Origin: Nymphaea colorata
Lineage: Eukaryota > Streptophyta > Magnoliopsida > Nymphaeales > Nymphaeaceae
DNA: 64,000 bases
Assembly (NCBI RefSeq): GCF_008831285.2
Contig: NC_045145.1
Span: 10,662,802 to 10,726,801 of the forward strand
Reading direction: 5' to 3'
The translations under genes and the position numbers were made by a program. This document shows, one piece after another, positions 2,581-10,366 of the stretch. Under the pieces are notes generated by a model. That model ran no database searches. It worked only from the letters and a program-made list of their open reading frames with translations, and was not told the origin of the DNA. The first letter of the stretch is position 1; each line of letters begins with the position of its first letter.

Positions 2581-2623
2581 CGGATCGACCCTTGGCCCAA
2601 GGGAAGCGAATTTGTGACAATAA

Positions 2624-2639
2624 GGCCACGTTTGATGGC
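2624..2639 (+). repeat. Harbinger left terminal inverted repeat
   Basis: GGCCACGTTTGATGGC, preceded directly by TAA. It matches the right end base for base in inverted orientation. Confidence 0.95.
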
Positions 2640-2753
2640 TGGGGGAAAGACTGTTGAAGAGGAAAAACATGAAAAAAATGTACGATTTCAACCGGTGTTA
2701 TCAAACACCGGTAACTTTTTCCGGGTAAAAAGGTTGATCCAGGGTAATTTTTC

Positions 2754-2987
2754 CCTGGAAAAAAGTCGGACCCTCCAGGGTCCGACTTTTTTGCGCAGAT
2801 AAATTTTTTGCCCGTTAGGGCTTCCTCCTCACTCTTGATCCTGTTTGATCACTCGCCTGACCGCTCGCTGTGCTCTCCACCACCGCCGCTGCTCTGCCTC
2901 TCGCCCGACCGCTCGCTGTGCTCTCCACCACCGCCGCTGCTCTGCCCAGTTGAGCCGTCGTGGTCTTCCGAAGAAGTTGAGGTACGC
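2754..2987 (+). repeat. Leader-like segment, copy 1 (direct repeat of 8315-8551)
   Basis: It begins with a 16-bp hairpin (2759-2774 pairs with 2777-2792, two-base loop), then GCCCGTTAGGGCTTCCTC. Next comes a 48-bp C-rich minisatellite repeated twice (from 2862 and 2910). It ends GAAGAAGTTGAGGTACGC, which looks like a splice donor (GAG|GTACGC at 2981). The same order occurs at 8315-8551. Its place between the left end and ORF1 suggests a non-coding first exon of the ORF1 transcript; that is inference. Confidence 0.8.
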
Positions 2988-5276
2988 TGTTGTCTCTCTC
3001 CCTATTCTGCGTTCTCCCTATTCTATGATGATGAAGATTTTATGTTCAGAGGACAGGGAGGCATGTGATGATGGTGATGAGTCTGACGCCATGCTCGGCA
3101 TCCCCTTTATGATCATCATCATCATGCAAACGCCCAAAACGCTTTTTATCCTGCTTTCTTTCCATGATTGTCTTTGCAGATAACCCTCGCTATCTCTTGC
3201 TCTCTCTGTTTTTTCCTCTTTATATATATTCATTCCCCTCGTTCATTCCCTCCATGTCTTCCACATCCCCTCTACTGTTTCCCTCTTTTCCTCTCAGAAA
3301 TTTTGAGCTTGGATTGTTTCAGATAAAAGTAGGAGAAGTTGCCATCCCCTCTTTTGCTTCTTTTTGATATATTTTATATTTTCACCGTTCAAACCTCATG
3401 GTTCGTTTGTTAACTGCTCTTCTTTGTCATGGGCTTTTGTTGTTCACTTATTTCTTTCTTTTCCGATTCTTCATTGAGTTGGGTTGGGTTTCCCTACATG
3501 AAGATAATAACTCATTCTGCCTTTTGGCATGGGCTTTTTGTATACTTCTTTCGTTGGTTTCTGTTTTTCTTTTTCATCTGTCTTAATGCTGGTATGCTTA
3601 GCACATAGCTTCACCACATTTATGAAGTCTGTCACCGTGTTTTGGGCTTTTGGCAGATGTAAGAATCTTGTGTGCAAATATTACATAATGCTATGACAGA
3701 CTTTATCTAATTTCCCCCGGTAGCATTGGTCCCCAAGTGTGACCCTCTTCTTAAATGCACGAAACTGTCCCCACTAGTATCCATTTTTCTTCTGATAACA
3801 ATAAAAAAAATATGTCTCATTCAGCGGTTTGGAGACCCATTTAATGCTCACTGCTATTATGAAGAGAGAAGTACCTTGTTAGAATTCTAATCCTGCTAAC
3901 TCCCACAGTTCAGTTTCATTATAGGCTGTAAGATGTTGTTGTAGGGTACTCGAGAAGGTTTTTCTGCTGATATCTGTTCTTGTTTTAAGAACTTTTCAAC
4001 ATAATTTAGGAATTGAATCATATATAAAAGTCAGCTCTCCTGGATTTGGTTTTCTATCTGATTTCTTAAGATCTCAATGCGCCAGAACAACTGGTAGATT
4101 TAGATATGATCGTCTCATTCACATTCTTCCAGGCCCCATAGGACCTCATTACCAAACCTATTAACTTCAACTTTGGGACATCTCTTTGAGAGTTAGTGGA
4201 ATGGGACCTGCAGTCCCACCTTGTCCTGTTTTCATTGACGTGGAAGGGGACCCATTAGGAGTTCATCTTGTCCTATAAACTGGTTGAGAGAGGGAGGAGG
4301 GAGAAGAGGCAAGGCAGAGATGATTGGGGTATTGCCCATAGCAGTGCAACAGGAGATTGAATAATTTTTATACATTCATGAAGTTGACGCCCGTTACCAA
4401 TCACTGCGACCTCCCTTTCTCCAACCTGGTAATGAATTCCTAGAATCTTATGTTGCACGCAGACTTTGAACATTCACCTAAATCTGCTTATGTTGGAAGT
4501 ATATTGAAAACTGGCTTTCCTTGGAGCAATACATTTTATCAAAGCAGAATAATGTCTGAGCCATGCTTTCTTCTTTAAAATATCTGAACTTTCTAGTTAC
4601 ATGAACTTTTGAAACATGCTTTTTTTCTTGAACATGACTCTGCCAATCCTTTAAATATCAGCAAGGTTAGCCTTCTAGCCGAAACAAGAATTCTGTTCCT
4701 GGATACGTAGACATGATTCCTTATACATTCATAGTTTCATACACTCAAACCTGCGTTTAAAAATTTTTTTCTTCAATTCTGACTTTTATTTCTTGCTTGT
4801 CGCCTCAGCTATAATTTATTGGTCATCCATAATGCCAGTTCTGCTCAAAGAAACTGGATATGATAGACATTCACCTAGTTGATCCCGAAAAAATCTGAAA
4901 ACCAGCAATATTTTGTATTGCTCATCGAGATCAATATGAATGATAAACGTTGGTATCAATGGGGTCTTTGCATCTTTTACATATTTTTCCTACCACCAAC
5001 CTCTGTACCCATAGTAGTATAGTTGTTTGATATTAAAAATTTTGATGAAAATTCATTTGAGCAGAACTGGCATATTTTAAATATTTTTGATGAAAATTCA
5101 CATTTTAATTTATTGGTTTATTAATGCACGTGCATGTGTGATAAAAAAACTGTTTGTTATTGGCCAGTCATTATTCTTACAATTGAAAATGCAAGTTAGT
5201 ATTGTCAATTTTGTTTACACATACGTTTTCATATTCAATGTTGTAGTTGTGAAGGAATATTGTGCAAATCATTAAC
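2988..5276 (+). other. Harbinger 5' interior without a recognised gene
   Basis: About 2.3 kb of AT-rich sequence between the leader-like repeat and ORF1. It could be a long 5' UTR intron, given the donor-like end of 2754-2987. I find no protein match in any frame. Confidence 0.45.
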
Positions 5277-6274
5277 ATGGAGGATAGTGGTACATCAAGG
5301 GAGAATCTTACATGGACTGAAGCACAAATGGACTACTTAGTCCAGCTTCTTTTGGAGCAATCACGCATTCCTGGTATGAAGTCTGGTGGAGGTTTGAAGG
5401 CAAAAGCATACACAGCAATAGAAAGAAGCATGATAGACCGCTTCGGAAGGGACTTCACTAAGGACAAAATAAAAAATAAACTGAAATATGCAAAACCAAA
5501 CTTGACAGTGTTGAAGGAAATGATGAACACAAGCGGGTTTGGATATGACCCTACTAACAAATGCATTGAAGTTGACCCCCAGGTTTGGAGTGAGTACATT
5601 GAGGTATGTTAAAGAAATCGTAATTTTAGGTTTTGTCTTACGTGTCTTTTTTTCTGTAAATGTTGAACCTATTAAAATTTTTTCAGAAATACCCTAATAG
5701 AAAAAAGTACAAAGGACCAAAGTTTTGGAGATACTATGATGAGTTTCTTGAGATATTTGGTGATTCTCACGCAACTGGGAACACAGCAGACACGTGCAAC
5801 AGCATGTTATTAGAGGATATTATTGAACCATTCCCAACAACACCTGCTTCCCAATCGACTCCATTTCACATGGAACCTGAAAATACACAATCATTCACAC
5901 AGATGCTTCATGAAGATAGTCCTTCAATACAATCGCCAACATCTGCAACTCCTACACCTCAACATCCCACCATGACAACCAACAGGACTACAAATAGGTC
6001 TAAAAGGAACAGGTCAGACTATGATGAAGAATACTATAATTTGTTGCACCGTATTGCTGACGATGTGCATACCATGACAAATGGAAGTAAAGGGGTTCAA
6101 TTTGTCCAGTGTTGTGAAATACTTCAAGAATTGGTTGAGACAGGACAAATTGATTCTGAAACACATGTGAAGAGTTTTGATTTGTTGGCTGAGGGCACGA
6201 ACCCCATGATCTTCGTCAATATTCCATCTTCACAACGGGTGCCATGGTTGACACGTAAACTGAATGGGTCGTAG
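5277..6274 (+). CDS. Harbinger ORF1: Myb/SANT-like DNA-binding protein, 304 aa
   Basis: In PIF/Harbinger elements the Myb/SANT-like ORF1 protein binds element DNA and helps the transposase enter the nucleus. The CDS is join(5277..5603, 5697-frame exon starting 5687..6274): donor GAG|GTATGT at 5604 and acceptor TTTTTTCAG at 5686 keep the frame, giving 304 codons and a TAG stop. The N-terminus has the Myb/SANT-like helix pattern (LTWTEAQMDYLVQLLLEQ, then AYTAIERSMIDRFGRDFT, then KNKLKYAKPNLTVLKEMM, and VWSEYIE before the intron). After the intron comes KYPNRKKYKGPKFWRYYDEF, then a polar Thr/Pro/Ser linker with a basic KRNRSDYDEEYY patch. The C-terminal helical part ends WLTRKLNGS. The start is the ATG at 5277; an upstream in-frame codon at 5262 is not an ATG. 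No stops or frameshifts are seen. Confidence 0.88.
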
Positions 6275-6548
6275 GTAAGAACTCATTGTTAATTATATGT
6301 TCAACGGTACATTAGTTGCACATTGCTCATTTTATATATGTTCCATCTATTATTTTGTGTCTTATGTGTTATTGGATGAAGTTTGCAATGGTTGTTTTTT
6401 ATGTATTCATGTTCTTTAAGTATTCATGTTGACTGTATTAGCAAATGCATTGTTTTTGGATGATGTTTGCAATGGTTGTTTGTACACTTTTTTTCACGAC
6501 ATGTTCTTCAATATTTTTTGTTATTATGTTTCATGCAGTTTAGTTGAA

Positions 6549-7991
6549 ATGGCTGACATCGACATGTTCTATGATGACGAAGAACTAGAGTGTTATTTGA
6601 TTCGGATAGTGTTCGTCTTCATCTTTTTTTGGTTAAGACAACTACCTCATACTAGGAGGATTGTTCATCCCTTTCGAGAAGCTGGTTCTTCTTTTGTTCA
6701 ACTCATGCTTGAAGGTCATCCTAGAAATTGTATGGACTTACTTCGCATGGATCGGCACACATATATGACATTGTGTACCACTCTCAAAACTAGGAATTTA
6801 TTGGAGGATGCTCGTGAGATTAGTCTAGAAGAACAAGTAGCTATATTTTTATTGACCATTGGACATAATGAACGCAATCGTGCAACTCAGAATACGTTTC
6901 AACATTCTGGACAAACAATAAGTAAATATGTCAGCCTTGTCCTACGAGCATTATGTATATTGGGTAGGGATTTCATCCGGCGCCCCAACATTGAGATGCC
7001 AAGTAGTATTCGGCGATCTGAAAGATTTTTTCCATATTTTCAGGTATTTTCATAAACGTAAACATTTTATGACACGTGCATATATGTCTAACCAGTATAT
7101 ATACTATATAGGATTGCTTAGGTGCAATCGATGGCACCCATGTACCTGCATGGGTCTCAGCGTCAGATCAAGCAAGATTTCGCAATAGAAAAGGAGTCAT
7201 TTCTCAAAATGTCATGGCTGTAGTTGGATTCGACACTCGATTCCACTACGTCTTGGCGGGATGGGAAGGAAGTGCAACAGACTCAAGAGTATTATACAAT
7301 GCACTTGATCATCCAACTGACCCATTTGTTGTGCCAGAAGGTACGTACTTCCACTCAACATTGCATACCTTCTTATGGGCATTTCACAAACTTTTACGAA
7401 TTTGTGTTCACTTGTAGGAAAATATTATCTTGCTGATGGGGGTTATCCAAACATTGTCGGTTTGCTAACACCTTATCGAGGGCATCGATATCATATGTCT
7501 GAATTTAGTGCACCAGGGGCACGCACACCTAGAACTCAAGAGGAATTATTCAACCATAGGCATTCATCACTACGAAATGTAGTAGAAAGAACTTTCGGCA
7601 TGTTGAAAGGACGTTTTCCAATACTAAAAATGCAAGTGCACTATCCATTGAAAAAACAAGTTCAAATTGTTCTTGCTACGTGTGTACTGCACAACTTCAT
7701 AATTGAACACAATCCGAATGCCGAACAATTTGTTGATGAAGAAACTCAGTCGAATGATAATGTTTTCTTAAGCGAACCAGAAATCGCAAGACAAACACAT
7801 CAACGAGGAAGCAACAATCTTCTGAGAACAGCTATAACAGGTCAAATGTTTACAGATTATCAGTTGAATAGTAAGTTCATTTATCAGTTATAACGAAGTT
7901 CATTTATCAGTTATTTGTTGATGTATAACAAGTTAAATGTTTAATGTATGTTTGACATCTACTTTGTTTTTAAATAGGACAACGAAGATGA
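6549..7991 (+). CDS. PIF/Harbinger DDE transposase, 396 aa
   Basis: This is the catalytic protein that cuts and joins the element ends. Four exons, join(6549..7043, 7112..7340, 7418..7870, 7978..7991), are bounded by consensus GT-AG sites and sum to 1191 nt without a stop. Residues 1-160 hold the HTH-like N-terminal region (LRMDRHTYMTLC, then EISLEEQVAIFLLTIGHNER). Exon 2 opens with the first catalytic Asp in GAIDGTHVPAW, followed by RNRKGVISQNVMAVVGFD and GWEGSATDSRVL. Exon 3 has the second Asp in YLADGGYP and the Glu in VVERTFGMLKGRFPIL, then VLATCVLHNFI. This is the Tnp4-type DDE fold of plant PIF transposases. The last exon adds only four residues and is the least certain; without splicing the ORF would end at 7893 instead. 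Length and motifs are normal for the family. Confidence 0.9.
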
Positions 7992-8113
7992 AGCATCAAC
8001 ATATATATTACAACGAAGATGAAGCATCTATTTTGTTTTGTGATGAAGCATCTATTTTGTAAAGTGCAGCAAAGAACAAGAAGATTACAATGAAGATGAA
8101 GCATCTATTTTAA
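7978..8113 (+). repeat. GAAGATGAAGCATC short repeats in the transposase 3' UTR
   Basis: The word GATGAAGCATC recurs four times (about 7987, 8020, 8042, 8094), usually after ACAACGAA or ACAATGAA. It lies directly after the transposase stop codon. Confidence 0.75.
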
Positions 8114-8314
8114 GATTGTCTGTTTTGTTTTTTGGATGTATACTCTTTAAACTCATATACTAGATGGGTAACCAATACTTTTTTGGATGTGAACTAACAA
8201 TATGGGCACCTACTTGAATGTTGGACAATACTCTTTAATGTATATTCCGCCCAAGTTTCTGTATAAATGTATATATGTTATCAACTCTTTCTTTTCTTGT
8301 TGATTGCTTATGGG

Positions 8315-8551
8315 CCTGGAAAAAAGTCGGACCCTGAAGGGTCCGACTTTTTGGCGGAGACAAATTTTCTGCCCGTTAGGGCTTCCTCATCACCATCATT
8401 CGCTTCAGCCTCCAGCCGTCGTCCGCTCGCCATGCTCTCCACCACCGCCGCTGCTCTGCCTCCAGTCGTCGTCCGCTCACCGTGCTCTCCACCACTACCG
8501 CTGCTCTGCCTCCAGCCGTCGTCGTGGTATTTCGAAGAAGTTGAGGTACGC
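8315..8551 (+). repeat. Leader-like segment, copy 2 (direct repeat of 2754-2987)
   Basis: It has the same order of parts as the 5' copy: a hairpin (8320-8335 with 8338-8352), GCCCGTTAGGGCTTCCTC, two C-rich minisatellite units (from about 8424 and 8474, 50-bp period), and GAAGAAGTTGAGGTACGC ending in a donor-like site. The hairpin loop differs (GA instead of CC) while the stem is kept. No TIR precedes it, so it is an internal duplication rather than the start of another element. It lies directly upstream of the captured exons and in the same orientation. Confidence 0.82.
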
Positions 8552-8730
8552 CATCCCTATATGCATATTTTGATGATGGCCTGTGGCCCTACCTTCCTTG
8601 AATCAGGCCATTGTATCTGGGGTCGCAAGAGTAGCCTTTGGTAAGAATTATGTTTGGGACATGTTAATTTAAAGAGTGCACTTTTCTGGGTCAGCATTTA
8701 TCACTGCAAACGTTTGTGTCATGATTTTTG

Positions 8731-9584
8731 TCATCATAGCGGGTAGTGTCCTTGGATTTCAAAGTGGATGGCCTGGTTATGCCCTTTCCAATGGGTAAGG
8801 GAAAAGTGCACTCTAGATGGTTATGCACTTTTAACTTTTTCTCCTATATGCATTGGAACTATTTTTATGAGAAATTCTCAATTCATTTCTTGGTTTTGTT
8901 GAAGGTGGTTGAAGCTGGAGATTTAATCTATGTTCTTGTTGTGGTTCTAGGTACTTTCCTTTTGGAGTTAATGGGATGCTTGCTGGATCCGCTACTGTTT
9001 TCTTTGCATATATAGGCTTTGATGCGGTTGCAAACACGGCTGAGGAGGTATATTGCTATTTACATAATTATGAATGTCATTCAACCCATTTTTGCTTCAT
9101 TCCATGTGACAAAAATTTTTGAAGTTGGATATAGCAGAAACAATTCGTTATTAACTTTCATAGGCACTTGTTAGTCAAAGCTTTTATTGTAAATATAGCC
9201 TGATATTTGTAGTCAGTTCACTTCATGCTTGACGCTCATCCTATCTTGCAGGTGAAGAATCCACAACGTGATTTGCCATTGGGAATTGGAAAGGGATTTT
9301 ATCCCTAGCTGTGTCTTGTACATGCAGGTATCTGTGGTTATAGTTGGTTTGGTGCCTTATTATGCAATGGATCCTGACACACCAATTTCATCTGCTTTCT
9401 CCAGCCATGGGATGCAGTGGACAGTGTAAGTCAGCTTTAATGGAAATCGTGTGGTTTTTTGTAGGTTAGCCAAATGACTGTGGTTGGCTTAATTCATCTG
9501 CGTTTTGTTTTAGGTACATTATCACTGCCGGTGCAATTACTTACTGCTCTCTGTGCAACATTGTTGGGTTCAATCCTTTCCCAG
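8731..9584 (+). pseudogene. Captured fragment of a vacuolar cationic amino-acid transporter gene (CAT2/3/4-like)
   Basis: Four consecutive exon-like blocks with their introns match the middle of plant cationic amino-acid transporters (APC family, tonoplast type). Block a, 8731-8794, reads AGSVLGFQSGWPGYALSNG. Block b, 8951-9047, reads YFPFGVNGMLAGSATVFFAY then IGFDAVANTAEE. Block c, 9252-9425, reads VKNPQRDLPLGIG and later VGLVPYYAMDPDTPISSAF then SSHGMQW. Block d, 9514-9584, reads YIITAGAIT and ALCATLLGSILSQ. Junctions are in phase (for example GG|G across a/b and GT|G across c/d). Block c is frameshifted after GIG with an in-frame TAG. Block d has a 4-bp tandem duplication (ACTTACT), and its donor is GC. 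Both ends of the transporter are missing, so no working protein is possible. It lies inside the Harbinger element, so it was acquired. Confidence 0.87.
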
Positions 9585-9775
9585 GCAAGTTCTTCGCAGC
9601 TTGAAAATATAGTTAACCAATGAGATTGCATACCATTGGAATTATTTAGTAATCATGTATTTGCTTGTTTTTTGTCCTGTACATGTAAAACATGTGTTGG
9701 AAACAACGTTAACGATTTGTTTTAGGAGCATTAATCTTTGTTTAAACTAATGTTTCTGTATTCCATAACTTGTAG

Positions 9776-9865
9776 ATGATTCCAGTGGCTTTGAACGATG
9801 TAGCGTTTTCAACACACGCGGTTTTGTTGACAGGATTCACAGTTTTGCAAGTTTTAATCTATGAA
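9776..9865 (+). pseudogene. Captured single exon of a cystinosin-like cystine transporter
   Basis: A 30-codon open block lies between a good acceptor (AACTTGTAG at 9775) and a donor (GAA|GTAATT). It reads MIPVALNDVAFSTHAVLLTG then FTVLQVLIYE, which matches the conserved IPVAANDVAF-type segment of plant cystinosin homologues (PQ-loop lysosomal/vacuolar cystine exporters). The exon itself is undamaged, but no neighbouring cystinosin exons are visible on either side. It follows the transporter fragment in the same orientation within the Harbinger element, so it is a second captured host fragment. The identification rests on one short exon from memory of the family. Confidence 0.72.
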
Positions 9866-10300
9866 GTAATTGGATCATCTAACGGAACCTTCTTTTTTTC
9901 CTGTCTTCTCCTGGTTTTCGTGCAGTTTTATAGAGGATGGCTTGTTATCAATTTTAATAGATGATGTTTACAACTTTCTAGCGTTTATGTTGTACATTAC
10001 AAAGGGTTTTATGTAATAACTCTATTATTGAATGGCTTTAAATATTTTTTCCATGGCTGAATTGCATATCTATGTGTAGGTGGTGGACGGTCAATTGCAG
10101 TTTTTGACCATGACAAAAAACGGTCAAAAAATTTTTCCTTGAAAAAATTTTCTTGCCTAACAAACTAGGCATTTTTTCCTTTGGAAAAAAGTTCCAGACC
10201 ATCAAACATGGTCTGAAACAAGAAGAAGGGAATTTTACCCTTCTGTCATTTTTTCAGGGTAAAATTACCGTAGAAAAAGTTCCCCCTCTAAAAAATCGGT
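9866..10300 (+). other. Harbinger 3' subterminal region
   Basis: No coding match. From about 10085 it contains nested short palindromes (AGACCATCAAACATGGTCTG around 10196-10216, and GGAATTTTACCC...GGGTAAAATTACC at 10230-10270) that echo the TIR word CATCAAAC. Such subterminal repeats may be transposase or ORF1 binding sites; that is inference. Confidence 0.6.
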
Positions 10301-10316
10301 GCCATCAAACGTGGCC
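10301..10316 (-). repeat. Harbinger right terminal inverted repeat
   Basis: GCCATCAAACGTGGCC, the exact inverted match of 2624-2639, followed by TAA at 10317-10319. Confidence 0.95.
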
Positions 10317-10366
10317 TAACGGAAAGATGGGCGGAGATTTTGGGGAAACGATTCCCTCCAGTATCG

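Follow-up and report, generated by a model that had tools for sequence, protein, structure and literature searches.

A PIF/Harbinger element of Nymphaea colorata is very probably a composite, in which a transposase-bearing element was fused to a Pack-type relative that already carried fragments of host DNA as cargo. The element occupies positions 2624-10316 (about 7.7 kb) of the window, the whole stretch of 64,000 nucleotides that was analysed (C8 10662802-10726801 of a 407.8-Mb assembly). Most likely the transposase-bearing element did not capture the host genes itself, and captured DNA can end up in this way on an element that encodes its own transposase.

A single mobile unit at two genomic sites

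The ends of the element consist of perfect terminal inverted repeats (TIRs), flanked by a target site duplication (TSD):

2621-2623, unstranded: left TSD, TAA
2624-2639, plus strand: 5' TIR, GGCCACGTTTGATGGC, perfect, 16 bp
10301-10316, minus strand: 3' TIR, GGCCACGTTTGATGGC inverted, perfect, 16 bp
10317-10319, unstranded: right TSD, TAA

A second full-length copy (7694 bp) was found at C3:11295885-11303578, with 99.9% identity to the window element from end to end, the two copies being separated by six differences (five substitutions and one indel). The TSD of the C3 copy is TCA instead of the TAA found at the window element, and the flanks of the two copies are without meaningful similarity. 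Given that each of the two sites has its own TSD and unrelated flanks, window 2624-10316 is a single mobile unit, and this unit has moved at least once after the fusion, giving two insertion sites. Only the window and C3 copies matched in full length either a cargo query (best 40 of 112 candidates scored) or a fusion-point query (best 40 of 185 candidates scored); as only these best candidates were scored, all genome match counts are lower bounds.

An earlier note, made from the letters of the window only, had described one complete element with perfect TIRs and a TAA duplication and had suggested looking for copies with the same ends, and the C3 copy bears it out on both counts. The note had named as its refutation that two separate elements might flank host DNA that had never moved; as far as the present unit is concerned, the C3 copy with its own TSD excludes this. 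In a broader form, two separate insertions flanking host DNA, or a duplication in the assembly, would account for the second 5' module present inside the element (see below), but the unit occurs twice, each time with another TSD and other flanks and with six differences between the copies, and the donor loci of the two transporter fragments in the cargo are on other chromosomes, which makes this explanation barely credible.

PIF/Harbinger elements generate 3-bp TSDs with a preference for TWA, and a matching 3-bp TSD was present in all ten family elements tabulated (TTA in four, TAA in four and TCA in two), a table that left out one relative with a truncated 5' end (PackB, below). With a plant substitution rate of 6.5e-9 per site per year, the five substitutions in 7.69 kb give an estimate of about 50 thousand years ago for the last move.

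The element's own genes

Two genes were identified in the transposase-bearing part:

5277-6274, plus strand: ORF1, Myb/SANT-like protein of 304 aa, exons 5277-5603 and 5687-6274 (PF12776)
6549-7893, plus strand: transposase of 399 aa, exons 6549-7043, 7112-7340 and 7418-7893 (PF13359)

Both frames are open in the window copy and read through GT-AG introns, as the earlier note had it. The ORF1 protein contains a Myb/SANT-like domain (PF12776, E 2.2e-15, Pfam), and the transposase contains DDE_Tnp_4 (PF13359, E 5.7e-25, Pfam) at residues 171-334 of 399 aa, with a profile match that spans the whole DDE model; two motif patterns for the catalytic acidic residues were also found. Several of its relatives in a protein search (best 120 of 1682) are named HARBI1 or ALP1-like. 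The traits of PIF/Harbinger that are present are a DDE_Tnp_4 transposase, a Myb/SANT-like second protein, and short TIRs with a 3-bp TSD.

Among the four copies read (window, C3, C2 and C14), both frames are open only in the window copy: in the C3 copy a premature stop interrupts the transposase, in a relative on C2 (C2:28057029-28063319) one interrupts ORF1, and in a transposase copy on C14 both frames are broken. At least 36 further places match the transposase part at 85-88% (best 40 of 185 candidates scored). Judging from its open frames the window element would be able to mobilize itself; given the premature stops in the C3 and C2 copies and the many related transposase places, movement may also be supplied in trans, so that the element would have been moved either by its own proteins or by those of relatives.

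A cargo matching four loci

All cargo pieces lie on the plus strand behind the transposase, in a cargo-bearing half that begins at the fusion point (8315) and ends with the 3' TIR (10316):

8553-8616, plus strand: remnant shared with C12:18577183-18577246, 64/64 bp identical
8620-8677, plus strand: captured callose-synthase piece, consisting of an exon end and the adjoining splice donor, donor locus C9:11957984-11958041, 93% (PF14288)
8702-9720, plus strand: captured segment of a cationic amino-acid transporter (CAT) gene, comprising four exon blocks and their introns, donor C1:19812703-19813719, 94.2%
9715-9913, plus strand: captured cystinosin segment, donor on C2 near 7.0024 Mb, 93.0%

The CAT exon blocks (a to d) begin near 8712, 8952, 9252 and 9515, and a 118-aa CAT reading, joined by hand across frames and containing one X, matches structures of vacuolar CAT4 (E 3.8e-42). 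The cystinosin exon at 9776-9865 is intact, with 30 codons, it matches a cystinosin homolog (E 5.9e-7), and its splice borders are identical to those at the C2 cystinosin donor locus. At both the CAT and the cystinosin donor loci the exons are in open frames, as judged from ORF lists inspected by eye and from Pfam searches with joined readings, not from full gene models. Because introns are retained in the cargo, capture took place at the DNA level. The C12 locus gave no Pfam family at E 0.1 in the five open frames tried. A search of a plasmid collection returned one 67-bp match (80.6%) to a Niallia plasmid, inside the CAT part.

These matches uphold most of what the earlier note had read between 8315 and 9865, namely a four-block CAT fragment with introns retained followed by a clean 30-codon exon of a cystinosin-like gene, all in the same orientation, and the donor search that it had proposed led to the CAT locus on C1 and the cystinosin locus on C2. 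Its description of the CAT frames as damaged holds for blocks c and d of the four, and its span does contain the CAT and cystinosin blocks, but the cargo-bearing half runs on to 10316. Likewise, CAT and cystinosin are indeed sources of cargo, but the note had counted these two host genes only and the cargo matches four loci, including the C9 callose synthase and the C12 stretch. With four loci matched by the cargo the vacuolar-transporter theme becomes weaker; the note had allowed that it may be coincidence, and coincidental it looks, so that a functional theme of two vacuolar amino-acid exporters was set aside in view of the callose-synthase and C12 sequences in the cargo.

Relatives of both parents

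The comparison with other family members divided the element as follows:

2624-8314, plus strand: transposase-bearing backbone, 95.0% (2621-4599) and 97.3% (4975-8317) identical to C2:28057029-28063319
2754-2987, plus strand: first 5' subterminal module, with a foldback, a leader and a splice-donor-like end (GAG/GTACGC), recognized by eye
8286-8317, plus strand: tail of a callose-synthase piece of the backbone lineage, 32 bp against the C9 locus L028, longer in the C2 relative
8315-8317, plus strand: fusion point between the backbone and the Pack-type element, CCT in both the C2 relative and PackA
8315-8551, plus strand: second 5' module, start of the cargo half, 82% identical to 2754-2987
9914-10316, plus strand: 3' end assigned to the Pack-type parent, grouped by identity to PackA and PackB

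The C2 relative is 6,291 bp long with a TSD of TAA, and it diverges from the window element after 8317; no CAT or cystinosin match was found in its 3' part, and for window 4600-4974 only a short piece was matched in it, among the matches listed. The relatives of the other half are two elements on C8, PackA (2,966 bp, TSD TTA, TIRs diverged) and PackB (5' TIR truncated). Both have the order 5' module, C12 piece, callose synthase, CAT, cystinosin and 3' end, and neither matched the transposase part of the window element among the matches listed. PackA, with captured coding DNA and without transposase, fits Pack-TYPE although its TIRs have diverged, and PackB is built in the same way but is truncated at its 5' end, whereas the window element is not classed as Pack-TYPE because both of its own genes are open. 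Since the TIRs of PackA have diverged and the 5' end of PackB is truncated, the true Pack parent is not among the loci read.

The module at 8315-8551 is 92-98% (by piece) identical to PackA and PackB, against 82% to the first module of the same element. From 9715 to the 3' end, identity is 96.0% to PackA and 95.6% to PackB, and 10025-10319 is 89% identical to the transposase-bearing C2 relative. By these identities the left part of the composite groups with the C2 element, and its right part, including the internal 5' module, with the Pack elements; a second 5' module would be found inside because the fused Pack-type relative brought its own copy. The earlier note had noticed neither this second module nor a fusion. 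The composite also lacks about 350 bp that PackA has between CAT and cystinosin, and its cargo is a shortened version of that of PackA, reduced by two internal deletions at which the alignments overlap by 8 and 6 bp.

The opposite history, in which the transposase-bearing element itself captured CAT and cystinosin and the Pack elements are its internal-deletion offspring, has in its favor that internal deletion is a frequent origin of non-autonomous elements and that the 3' ends of the composite, PackA and PackB are closely alike. However, PackA has 567 aligned bp of the C12 locus, against the 64-bp remnant in the window element, together with CAT blocks c and d in frame and the roughly 350 bp absent from the composite; this additional cargo and the in-frame blocks make the composite cargo the derived, shorter version. 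Moreover, the 5' ends of the Pack elements are only about 80% identical to the 5' end of the composite where aligned, and match its internal module instead, and the C2 relative is a backbone without CAT and cystinosin. We thus regard capture by the transposase-bearing element itself as highly unlikely, and favor fusion with a relative that was already loaded.

The C2 transposase element carries two callose-synthase pieces of its own, of 97 and 27 aligned bp. One and the same callose-synthase exon (L028, C9:11953000-11962999) was used twice: the C2 transposase element contains donor positions 4854-4948, the Pack elements contain 4959-5016, and 10 bp separate the two stretches in the donor. This double uptake may reflect either two captures from the same donor or a single old capture that was split afterwards.

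Proposed joining of the two parents

According to the scheme that we propose, a Pack-type relative without transposase would first have gathered DNA matching the C12, C9, C1 and C2 loci. An element encoding ORF1 and transposase would have lost its own 3' end and the Pack-type parent its first 125-130 bp, the truncated transposase-bearing element being then joined to the Pack-type relative at a 3-bp match, a length little above what chance would give. As each parent supplied one outer TIR and these two match, the whole 7.7 kb would be mobile as one element. The most likely course would be a deletion between two adjacent insertions of like orientation, which removed the intervening DNA together with the inner TIRs, and we consider such a neighbour fusion to be slightly favored as the way in which the parents were joined. 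The loci read included no such pair of adjacent parents, although an intermediate of this kind would be expected.

Alternatively, the fusion could have arisen by template switching, when gap repair after excision was interrupted and continued by copying a Pack element located elsewhere. Alignments overlap at all three internal joins, by 3 bases at 8315-8317, 8 at 8553-8560 and 6 at 9715-9720, short shared sequences have been described for gap filling in the available part of one report (PMC8277862), and the break is located at the edge of a foldback. On the other hand, the same marks are left by end joining after a deletion, and neighbour fusion accounts for the presence of the second parent all the way from its 5' module to its TIR. 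Template switching is therefore possible but, in our judgment, rather less likely than the loss of DNA between two neighbours. As to the foldbacks, the first 5' module has one at 2746-2805, with 29-nt arms that are 83% complementary and a 2-nt spacer, and the fusion point lies at the edge of its second copy, where a reverse self-match was found at 8321-8352.

Possible exchange of halves elsewhere in the family

The 3' part of the C2 element also has matches on C7 and C10, at places absent from the lists of element matches, in which only the best candidates appear. A group of six loci (L014, L015, L016, L017, L021 and L022) comprises non-autonomous elements of about 2.7-3.0 kb, each with a matching 3-bp TSD. 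All six contain the 3' filler of the C2 element plus a common 3' end, as well as 43 bp from the cystinosin exon region seen in the cargo, and a 94-bp piece of ORF1 is present in four of them. The 5' 2.6 kb of the backbone was found combined with the 3' half of this group on C10 near 8.855 Mb and, twice, on C8 near 24.22 Mb, and a shorter 5' part of the backbone is combined with the 3' end of the group on C10 near 8.07 Mb; the other two of the five further loci read showed no such hybrid. The C8 hybrids (L032 and L036, near 24.216-24.224 Mb) are two head-to-tail copies with identical flanks (aagtttta / ttaaagaa), which looks like a tandem duplication of the locus and not like two insertions.

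The different host sequence in the C2 relative and the hybrids on C10 and C8 suggest that exchange has occurred more than once, and the exchange of halves may not be a single accident, although the C10 and C8 hybrids could also have arisen by deletion within longer elements since lost. It is a tentative and rather doubtful extension of this idea that the family has exchangeable halves in general, with Pack cargo reaching transposase-bearing members through end-to-end fusion, and with the internal 5' module making it an extra transcription unit within a self-moving element.

Comparison with known systems

The earlier note had called it unusual for a transposase-bearing element to carry host gene fragments, and this was overstated, since a precedent exists in grapevine. 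The PIF elements of the Pifvine-3 kind, described in 2008, have ORF1 and a transposase and often contain extra DNA identical to host exons and introns, and according to the available text the cargo is in some cases common to several copies, so that transposition was not stopped by it (PMC2528002). The window element resembles them in combining a transposase with host exons and retained introns, and in being present in two copies. In Pifvine-3, however, the extra DNA is located in the long 5' region, whereas here it lies behind the transposase and next to a second 5' module, and the part of that paper available to us contains no description of a fusion with a Pack element (PMC2528002).

Subgroup B1 of maize Pack-PIF cluster 18 has PIF TIRs that enclose pieces from more than one gene, and the AB and BB groups of rice Pack-Mariner cluster 217 were inferred in 2022 to be two fused family members, fusion by loss of the DNA between two neighbours having been proposed for Pack-TYPE elements in the sections available from the same study (PMC8903248). 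Neighbour fusion is also described for Pack-CACTA in the accessible portion of a 2026 review of gene capture in plants. In contrast to the window element, with both genes open, Pack-TYPE elements are non-autonomous by definition, and the Pack-PIF 18 and Pack-Mariner 217 groups average 311-535 bp, whereas here one parent brings a whole transposase half (PMC8903248, as far as its available text goes). Fused elements of the present kind would be missed by Pack-type surveys because a transposase match marks them as 'autonomous' (PMC8903248, same sections).

Chenopodium CACTA elements are similar in that their ends, complete or almost so, enclose captured fragments, which in the AP2 case lie next to a coding domain of the element, but these elements belong to another superfamily, and no fusion of two family members was found in the available part of that report (PMC8978399). 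Animal Pack-TIRs, attributed to gap filling or FoSTeST, likewise show short shared sequences at joins and occur in multiple copies with different TSDs, but they are animal elements and a transposase-bearing partner is not mentioned in the available text (PMC8277862). A literature search, with subscription journals mostly outside its scope, found no description of the window element and no paper on Nymphaea colorata with Harbinger.

Host-DNA capture by a transposase-bearing PIF and the fusion of neighbouring elements, inferred in rice, are both known already. In the sources as available we found no description of an end-to-end fusion between an element encoding transposase and a Pack element, with the join, relatives of both parents and donors all visible and with transposition after the fusion. 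The presence of donors, relatives of the parents, fusion point and later transposition in one genome makes the neighbour-fusion model of gene capture checkable.

Frame damage and annotation of the cargo

In the composite, CAT blocks c and d are frame-broken, whereas the same blocks are open in PackA and PackB; overall, CAT frames are open in four of four blocks of PackB and in three of four of PackA, in which block a has a 28-bp deletion. The composite has 21 private changes in 958 cargo sites, compared with 6 in PackA and 4 in PackB, and these are not fewer in exons (11/392) than in introns (10/566). Divergence from the donor is 13/419 in exons versus 34/593 in introns for the window element, 10/420 versus 27/603 for PackB and 7/392 versus 31/576 for PackA. 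Constraint on the cargo was rejected, given that lower exon divergence fits a constrained donor with a free copy and that the private changes show no saving in exons. Deamination was not supported as the source of the extra changes of the composite, as their spectrum is mixed, with C>T or G>A in 6 of 21; relaxed constraint may account for them. The frame damage in CAT is clustered, with seven private changes and a 1-bp insertion within 16 bp (window 9292-9307) and a 4-bp insertion within about 9515-9584 that is a tandem duplication (TTAC), and it looks more like repair scars than like scattered decay.

It could be supposed that the internal 5' module, in which the leader and the splice-donor-like end are repeated, drives expression of the cargo as a functional new gene, the more so as the cargo of PackB and PackA is present in NCBI as proteins of 149 and 106 aa. 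Against this, CAT exons c and d are broken in the composite, private changes are no rarer in its exons than in its introns, and the NCBI protein models are possibly gene-finder output. We find a functional cargo very improbable, and it is reasonable to suppose that the cargo is a passive, decaying passenger that does nothing for the element.

Annotation is affected as well. The 149-aa 'cationic amino acid transporter 2, vacuolar-like' of N. colorata (P0121) has the private residues of the PackB cargo (L010/L011), and the 106-aa 'cationic amino acid transporter 3, mitochondrial-like' (P0131) has those of the PackA cargo (L012), both being listed on a contig as long as C8; these predicted proteins are Pack-type transposon cargo, named as amino-acid transporters in Nymphaea colorata. 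A 173-aa protein of Victoria cruziana (P0122) shares the start methionine of the PackB cargo model and the same CAT exons, at 91%, and could be either a gene-model fragment or an independent capture. In Nymphaea thermarum, a '60S ribosomal protein L26-1' (P0028) has N-terminal PIF transposase sequence, and is either a mis-joined gene model or a host gene beside or inside a PIF element.
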